DNA of 64,000 nucleotides, from contig JANXRY010000024.1 of assembly GCA_025356635.1 (NCBI GenBank), forward strand, positions 1 through 64,000, given 5' to 3'. The DNA is from Gammaproteobacteria bacterium (lineage in GTDB: Bacteria > Pseudomonadota > Gammaproteobacteria > Xanthomonadales > Xanthomonadaceae). Made by a program: the position numbers and the translations under genes. The stretch's first letter is position 1; each line of letters starts with the position of its first letter. The notes beneath the pieces are model-generated. The model did not search any database. It was not told where the DNA came from and was given only the letters and a program-made list of their open reading frames with translations. Below, piece by piece: positions 37,341-40,300 of this stretch.

Positions 37341-40300
37341 AAGCGGCAAGTTGCCGTGCCAGTCGCTTGTGCGAAACCGGCCGGCGCGTACCCAATTCCT
37401 GTGCGAAAGTCTGGACACGCAGTTCTTCCAGATCCTGCCGGAACGCGCGCCATTCCGGGCGCTGCCCGTGACCGGCCGCATGCGCCTCGGCCAGAGCCTG
37501 GACATAGGGCTGCAGCTCCAGCAACCGGGCTTGGTCCTTGATCGGGTCGGCCAATGCGCGCTCTACCCGCAGCTTGAGCGCCTTGAGGTAACGCGGCATT
37601 TCCGCCAGCAGGCTGGCCGGTGTCTCGCGCAGGAAGCCTGAATGCACCAGGCTTCGAAGATGCGCGGAGATATCGTCAAGGTTGCCGCTCGCCCAACCCA
37701 TCAAGGGCGATTCCAGTTTTGGTTTTATCTCGGCATACAGCGCGAGGATTTCCTCGGCCAATTGCAATCGCTGCATGGCTTGCCCGAACAGTTCGCGCGC
37801 AATCCTCGTCATCTGCGCAGTGAACGCTGCTTTATCGCGCAGCGCGGCAAGACCTTCACCCAGCGCCGCTGCCAGCGCGGCATCAATGATATCCGCACGT
37901 AGCCGTTCCGAAGATTCGATCGCCGCATACAGCAAACCCAGCTTCGGCGAGACGGGCAACTGCTTGCGCGACTGCTTGACCTTATCGGCCAACGAAAATT
38001 GTGCCAGCCGACGCACCCCGCGTTCGTGCTGGCCACGCGCCTCGGCAGAATCGGCGAACACGCGCAAGGAAACGCTCTCGTCCTCGTCCACCAGCGCTGG
38101 ATAGGCGGGAACCCCCGCCGCGCCGGCAATTTGCTCCGGGATAGTCAGCTCGGGAAATTCGCGCATGCCTTCGCGTGCCAGGCGCTCGCCAGCGCGATCA
38201 GCGAAGGCACGCTCGGCCGCGTCGCCGAAGCGGCGCCTGAGTTCGTCGAGATCGCGCGATACCGCCAGCACCCGGCCATCGCGTTCACCCAGGCGCAGGT
38301 TCATGCACAGGTGCGGATCAAGCGCGGCTTCGTCAAAGTCCAGCGCCGTCACCGGCGCGCCGGTGGTCCGGCTGAGAAAACGCGCCAGCGTTCCCGTTAG
38401 CGAATCGGCCTCGGGCTGCGAATGTGCCTGGAAAAACGCGCGTGCGAAATCCGGCGCCGGCACATAGTTGCGACGCAGGGGCTTCGGTAACGAACGAATC
38501 ATTGCGGCCGATTTTTCTTCGATCACTCCCGGGACCAGCCAGGTCAAGCGCGCCGGGTCCAATGCTTTTAGCAAGTGCAAGGGCACGTCTAGGGTCACGC
38601 CATCGTCCTCGGCCCCTGGCTCGAAGCGATAATGCAATGCCAACCGGATATCGCCGAGCGGGAAATATTTCGGAAAACGATCGGCTTCGCTGCCCTCGCC
38701 CGGCAGCAGGTCGGTGAGCGACCACTCCAGCGCTTTCTTCTTGGCAGGCGCGAGTTTCCCGACCCAGCTATCGAGCCCTTGCACGGTTGTAATATCGGGC
38801 GGCAAGCGATCGAGATACCAACGCGCTTGCCAGTCTTCGTCAGCGATCAAACCGACACGACGCAATTTCGCTTCTTCTTCCTGAGCTTGCGCCAGCATTG
38901 CCAGATTACGCGCAACGAAACCGGCTCGCGTGTTGATCTCGCCGGGCAGCAACGCCTGGCGCACGAAGATCTCGCGCGCTTCCGCCGGGTACAGGCCACC
39001 GTAGTGAACCGGTTTTTTCGGCGCCAGCACCAGGCCGAACAGGCTGATCTGTTCGAAGCCCACCACCCGGCCCTGGGCGCGCGACCAGTGCGGATCGAAA
39101 TGTTTGCGCGCAAGCAGATGCGCGAGTTCAGCGACCACCCAGTCGGGCTCTATTTTTGCGCCAATCAGGCCCCAGATTTTCTGGGTGTCGAGCAGGGTCG
39201 CGACTAGCAACCAGGCCGGTGGTTGCTTGGCCAGGGTCGAGCCCGGGAAAATCTGGAACTTGCGCTGGCGTGGCGCGTCGTAGAGGCCCTTCTCCGACTT
39301 GTGGCCGATCTGGGTTGGCAAGCCGGCGATCAGGGCGCGATGCAAGCCGATGTACCGCGACGAAGAAGGGAGGAGCATATTGCCTTCGGAAAACTGGTTA
39401 TCGCGCGAGTTTTCCGAAGGCAATACCTCCTCCCCGGAAGCACCTTGGTCCCAACCAAAATCTTCGCAACTGAGCAACACCTGTCGGTGCAGCTCGCGCC
39501 ATTCGCGCATGCGCAAAAAGCCGAGGAAGCGCTTTTCGCACCAGCCGCGCAGCTTCGATTGCGTTAGCTCTTCATGTGCGCTCTTGTACGCGCCCCACAG
39601 CTTGAGAACACCAAGGAATTCCGAATTCGCATCGGCGAACTGCGCGTGAGCATTGTCGGCGGCTTCGCGGGCATCGGCCGGACGTTCGCGCGGATCCTGG
39701 ATGCCCAGGAAGGCCGCAAGCACGGTCATTTCACGCAGCACGCCATGATGTTGCGCGGCGATCAGCATGCGACCGAGCTTCACATCCACCGGCAGTCGCG
39801 CCATCTGCTTGCCGATGGCAGTCAAACGACGATCCTTGTCGATCGCGCCAAGCTCGGACAGCGTCTGCCAGCCATCGGCGATCGCGCGTGGGTCCGGCGC
39901 GTCGATGAACGGGAAGTCCTCCACCCGGCCCAGTCCGAGATCGAGCATGCGCAGGATCACCCCGGCCAGCGAGGCGCGCAGGATTTCCGGATCGGTGTAG
40001 CGCGGCCGCGACTGAAAATCTGCCTCCGAGTACAGGCGGTAGCAGATGCCGGCGGCGATGCGACCGCAACGGCCTTTGCGCTGGTCTGCGCTGGCCTGCG
40101 AAATCGGCTCGATATGCAGCCGATCGAGTTTCTGCCGTGGCGAATAGCGCTTGACCCGCGCCGCGCCTGGATCGATCACGTAGCGAATACGCGGCACCGT
40201 CAGCGAAGTTTCGGCAACATTGGTGGTCAGCACGATGCGTCGCTGCGGGCCAGGCTGGAACACGCGATCCTGTTCCTTGGTCGACAGACGTGCGTACAAG

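Follow-up and report, generated by a model that had tools for sequence, protein, structure and literature searches.

The window analyzed here, a 64-kb stretch of DNA from an Arenimonas bacterium, contains an intact hrpA gene for an ATP-dependent RNA helicase (Table 1). A profile search identified the full-length protein as HrpA (TIGR01967, 1426 bits), the Pfam domains DUF3418, OB_NTP_bind, and HA2 are present, and the sequence aligns end to end with that of E. coli HrpA (PDB 9ggr). The host genome (2.5 Mb, 97% complete, 126 contigs) looks like a metagenome bin. Within the gene lies a palindrome that is translated in frame, and the residues it encodes are immediately N-terminal to the OB fold (aa 597-668 by Pfam). 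There are 24 gap columns in E. coli HrpA opposite this segment, corresponding to ∼24 fewer residues, in good agreement with the roughly 25 extra residues that an initial annotation had given. The comparison with relatives suggested in the same annotation shows that the segment is also absent from close relatives (A. oryziterrae, L075).

Table 1. Coordinates of hrpA and of the palindrome within the window
Feature	Position	Strand	Basis
Intact hrpA gene for a DEAH-box RNA helicase (ATP-dependent) of 1269 aa	37324..41133	-	ORF, TIGR01967, Pfam, E. coli alignment
Length-variable linker of HrpA, N-terminal to the OB fold; in Lysobacteraceae, a hotspot of palindromes in frame	39344..39475	-	
In-frame palindrome, whole hairpin, 68 nt, aa 567-589: GEEVLPSENSRDNQFSEGNMLL	39368..39435	-	
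Outer stem, one side; orientation unchanged in sister species	39368..39375	.	Fold and alignment
Inner arm of 18 nt, perfect; 3′ side when read in hrpA sense	39378..39395	.	Inverted-repeat search
12-nt loop; reverse-complemented in sister species (G016/L065)	39396..39407	.	Alignment to sister
Inner arm of 18 nt, perfect; 5′ side when read in hrpA sense	39408..39425	.	Inverted-repeat search
Outer stem, other side; orientation unchanged in sister species	39427..39434	.	Fold and alignment

Geometry and setting of the palindrome

An inverted-repeat search and a fold corroborate the hairpin that was first described from the sequence alone, with its 18-bp perfect stem, 12-nt loop, and outer 8-bp stem in the hrpA frame. 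The inner arms are 100% complementary across the spacer, and the feet of the element are GGGG and CCC. In the mRNA sense, the 68 nt fold as a single stem with one bulge and one G·U pair (MFE -47.2 kcal/mol, z -8.5), and 0 of 200 shuffles were equally stable. No other inverted repeat in the window is perfect over at least 16 bp (spacer up to 60). By chance, the window would be expected to contain ∼1.6e-4 perfect repeats of 18 bp within the same spacer limit, and hrpA 1e-5.

The linker that houses the palindrome is variable in length: it spans 44 aa in the window's HrpA, is as short as 20 aa among relatives, and exceeds 90 in others. This variation, taken with the Pfam domain borders and the E. 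coli alignment, suggests that the palindrome sits in an exposed linker. An AlphaFold model of aa 31-731, built with 8 sequences, was of too low a quality for use (mean pLDDT 45); it drew the linker as coil, as it did much else.

Loop inversion and paired arm changes between sister species

The second carrier of the palindrome is the MAG GL140_5_metabat_427. In the tree, this MAG and the window's genome are sisters (support 100), adjoining A. oryziterrae, which is without the palindrome. In the hrpA gene of the sister, the same codons are occupied by a palindrome of 68 nt, and the two align without gaps; in the sense direction the sister reads GGGGAGGGCG GACTGCCATCGGGAAACT TGTTATCGCGCG AGTTTCCCGATGGCAGTT CGCTCATCCC and the window GGGGAGGAGG TATTGCCTTCGGAAAACT CGCGCGATAACC AGTTTTCCGAAGGCAATA TGCTCCTCCC. 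The 12-nt loop matches that of the sister at 11 of 12 positions if it is reverse-complemented and at 2 of 12 if compared directly. All 9 orientation-informative positions in the loop are inverted (0 direct), and those in the outer arms are 8 direct and 3 inverted; the loop is thus inverted without inversion of the outer arms. Because a second insertion facing the other way should have inverted the feet as well, we read this as an in situ flip of the inner part and not as a second insertion. The direction and number of flips are not readable from n = 2 carriers. Conservative recombination between 18-bp arms that are 12 nt apart, or the action of a site-specific invertase, is unlikely at such a size. 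With the loop in either orientation, the reading frame is free of stops.

The arms have changed together. Among the 18 inner pairs, 14 are the same in the two species, three carry double changes that restore Watson-Crick pairing (T-A/C-G, T-A/A-T, and A-T/G-C), one has changed to G·U, and none is broken. The four-fold sites of hrpA are 42% divergent between the two. When positions were simulated to change independently at hrpA's own rates, all 18 pairs were kept in 0.26% of runs, and 18 kept pairs together with at least three double changes occurred in 0.009% of runs (∼9e-5). Neither the loop inversion nor the coevolution of the arms had been noticed in the initial annotation. We find it hardly conceivable that the hairpin is an assembly artifact or a product of chance. 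That the sister sequence comes from a MAG, and that the window's genome appears to be one, would speak for an artifact, but two separate assemblies show a perfect stem at the same codon with differing arm sequences, the arms are shorter than the usual assembly k-mers, the ORF is intact, and chance is opposed by the expectation for hrpA given above.

Two features that are looked for in template switching, a loop that reads as the reverse complement of its counterpart in a close relative and paired multibase changes that leave the arms perfect, are both present. We consider it probable that a palindrome settled in the HrpA linker in the common ancestor and has since been subject to template switching from arm to arm. 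In the ancestor of the window's species and the GL140 MAG, the palindrome would have come to lie in frame in this tolerant linker just ahead of the OB fold, and repeated replication template switches between the arms would have followed. Each switch would copy one arm onto the other, such that the stem stays perfect while its sequence drifts, and at least one interstrand switch would have left the loop reverse-complemented. Arm copying and loop flipping would both be length-neutral, so the reading frame would survive, and the resulting protein would carry a changing 23-residue linker. As far as the two sequences can tell, template switching is the likeliest agent of these changes, and by analogy with the other palindromes at the same spot, the first arrival was most likely that of a captured mobile palindrome.

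For yeast, arm homogenization and spacer inversion in coding genes have both been reported as results of template switching (PMC8604942), and rRNA hairpins, those of bacteria included, show loop inversion accompanied by compensatory changes that has been ascribed to it as well (PMC8794818). The hrpA hairpin resembles these cases in its perfect arms, paired multibase changes, reverse-complemented loop, and conserved length. It differs from them in that it lies in a bacterial protein gene and is seen between species, not strains; compared to the S. cerevisiae cases, which involve 2-5 bp substitutions, the spacer here is 12 nt and the arms are 18 bp with an additional outer stem. Perfect inverted repeats that are actively maintained in coding sequence are also found in the mitochondrial genes of Nematomorpha (PMC6649704), but there both arms encode conserved residues, whereas in hrpA they encode a variable linker. 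The hrpA hairpin is a natural case, in a bacterial coding sequence, in which arm correction and loop inversion, both hallmarks of template switching, are found in one hairpin between two species.

Several points run counter to the template-switching reading with its captured palindrome, namely, the small number of carriers (n = 2, both apparently metagenome bins), the 3 inverted outer positions, the absence of any copy elsewhere that would reveal a mobile origin, and the fact that selection for an RNA or DNA hairpin would also yield paired changes, though not the flip. Selection could act on the mRNA hairpin through ribosome pausing, mRNA stability, or autoregulation by the encoded helicase, and would be in keeping with a very stable hairpin in both species, with the paired stem changes, and with the recurrence of long hairpins across hrpA genes. 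We nevertheless regard it as improbable: most relatives are without any hairpin, and where hairpins occur, their sequences, sizes, and sites vary. There is also no preference for folding of the sense strand across both species, as the direction is inconsistent (sense -45.0 vs antisense -47.9 kcal/mol for the window's palindrome and -55.8 vs -43.3 kcal/mol for that of the sister). An Rfam search with the hairpin returned nothing above threshold, its only hit being a subthreshold match to rox1 (E 0.039, 23 of 58 bits) that we attribute to chance similarity of hairpin shape; neither the Rfam search nor strand folding gave evidence for a function at the RNA level. Selection for a hairpin would explain the paired changes only, whereas template switching accounts for these and for the flip as well. 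This hairpin helps to distinguish stems that are kept perfect by mutation from those kept perfect by selection. A more elaborate proposal, to which we assign very little weight, is that the hrpA hairpins of Lysobacteraceae are acquired and repaired because they are functional, with a slowing of the ribosome that is relieved by HrpA acting as a self-sensing loop and the flippable loop serving to switch the linker peptide reversibly.

Copy number and origin

The segment had been likened to the palindromic RPEs of Rickettsia or to a REP captured by a gene, and further copies were anticipated, especially in frame in other genes. No second copy of the palindrome is found in the window's own genome, and an exact-arm pattern search of genome contigs returned none. 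Among 80 relatives searched, it is absent from all except G016; a variable-arm pattern matched the window alone in 299 Lysobacteraceae genomes; and a BLAST search of 397 Lysobacteraceae genomes with the sister's version found the palindrome only in the window and the sister, along with two weak matches that are short single stretches. BLAST against plasmids and phages yielded no copy. A match in G033 (L036) proved to be a lone arm-like 24-mer with no palindrome and was dismissed as chance. The carriers among ∼400 Lysobacteraceae genomes are therefore n = 2, at the orthologous hrpA site, and the expectation of further copies did not hold.

As in Rickettsia RPEs, the palindrome is read in frame, adds a stretch of residues to a functional housekeeping protein, and is absent from orthologues. 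Unlike RPEs, it is present as one copy and not as many dispersed ones, it is confined to a single gene, whereas the GGGGTCAG family of relatives does occur in frame in several unrelated genes, and its stem is kept perfect; RPEs are described as losing repeat identity over time (PMC6649704). The likeness to intragenic REPs of the GTAG/CGTC superfamilies (PMC3733652), in-frame palindromes of 20-30 aa in DNA and RNA enzymes that include RNA helicases, is similarly partial, in that the hrpA palindrome has neither a GTAG or CGTC foot nor a second copy and is unlike the GTAGGAG REP of its own genome. In Xanthomonas recB, an intragenic REP lies at about one site in two species (PMC3733652). Nor is there a cognate RAYT with matching flanking REPs, as the Y1_Tnp gene is flanked by unrelated GTAGGAGCGATGGAAATCGCGAC REPs. 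The comparison with RPEs and captured REPs is thus fair as an analogy, given the mobile-type palindromes in the same and one other linker of relatives, but does not extend to membership in a repeat family.

We note that the GTAGGAG-type REPs of the window's genome (GTAGGAGCGATGGAAATCGCGAC palindromes) were located at L171:2321-2373 and L176:9350-9413 (contig C45), and one of these REPs adjoins the only Y1 transposase gene of the genome. Palindrome-preserving shuffles revealed no convincing kinship of the hrpA palindrome to this REP, the metalli REP, GGGGTCAG, or GTACCAGG elements (best p 0.038 in ten tests).

The palindrome might itself be a selfish multicopy in-frame element of the RPE or REP kind, perhaps inserted twice independently in opposite orientations. 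The occurrence of different mobile-type palindromes in the same linker of other species, the multicopy GGGGTCAG palindromes in frame in hrpA and icmF, and the known intragenic REPs, RNA helicases included (PMC3733652), would be consistent with such an element. We consider it unlikely, as the palindrome is single-copy in its own genome and absent from ∼400 family genomes, plasmids, and phages, it is dissimilar to its own REP and other local families (all p >0.03), and it would be an unlikely coincidence for such an element to have entered the same codon twice with its outer arms facing the same way both times.

The source could be either a captured element, the origin of which is gone or unsampled, or local birth by template switching. 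Birth de novo, in which ordinary sequence of the linker gave rise to the palindrome without a mobile element and the later history is unchanged, is a tenable if less favored possibility. It would account for the lack of copies in everything searched, a single template-switch event can create perfect stems (PMC8794818), and the linker peptide of A. oryziterrae is partly similar (ELPTGD / VLPSEN / GLPSGN). Against it, the linker repeatedly receives foreign palindromes, and A. oryziterrae aligns too poorly for a source arm to be recognized. We lean slightly toward capture because the HrpA linker is a palindrome hotspot. The weights that we give to these origins overlap with that of the ancestral palindrome reshaped by template switching, the core of which is maintenance and the flip.

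HrpA linkers as sites of palindrome entry

Perfect stems of at least 15 bp are found inside the hrpA ORF in 15 of 81 Lysobacteraceae genes, and all of them lie in two interdomain linkers, one before the OB fold (11 genes) and one between the two RecA domains (9 genes), that together make up a few percent of HrpA. For the linker before the OB fold, the tree demands at least eight changes of palindrome state. Most of the linker elements are of the GGGGTCAGGTTCACTTTTC kind and are read in one frame as (R)GQVHFS...KSEPDP; others are GTACCAGGTTCATTTTTCC, GAGGAACGAGGAACGAG, CCCCCTTT...AAAGGGGG, and GGTAGAGCGGCCTTC palindromes. A genus-wide, gene-blind scan for the GGGGTCAG arm found 13 places, of which 3 lie in hrpA and 2 are in-frame sites in icmF. 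Since hrpA makes up ∼0.13% of such a genome, its share of 3 in 13 greatly exceeds what random placement would give. For other genes, ∼366 kb from four genomes were sampled for palindromes. That REPs can lie in frame in enzymes acting on nucleic acids, RNA helicases among them, has been reported before (PMC3733652); hrpA is unnamed in the main text of that paper, and no other report of such palindromes in hrpA was found in the literature searched. HrpA is thus one protein with two linkers that take up in-frame palindromes in lineage after lineage, and it offers a ready system for the study of how palindromes enter and persist in proteins.

The stems between the RecA domains were located at ∼nt 910-1050 in L068, L073, L080, L091, L112, L128, L065, and L067 and at nt 94-168 in L076; the window's own HrpA has no palindrome in this linker (∼aa 212-230). 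In Pseudoxanthomonas hrpA (L091/L112), the two linkers contain palindromes of different types, one of which is built from GGGATTC tandem repeats that face an inverted array of themselves. Between L074 and the very close species L071/L072, a GGGGTCAG palindrome with a 22-bp stem appears to replace linker sequence rather than lengthen it. The GGGGTCAGGTTCACTTYTC palindromes of Arenimonas are low-copy and RPE-like in behavior, and the intragenic ones share a frame and the peptide GQVHFS...SEPDP. In icmF, which encodes a fused isobutyryl-CoA mutase/GTPase, the in-frame GGGGTCAG palindromes of L149 and L147 (G020 and G018) occupy one shared interdomain site and are translated as RGQVHFS..GKSEPDP.
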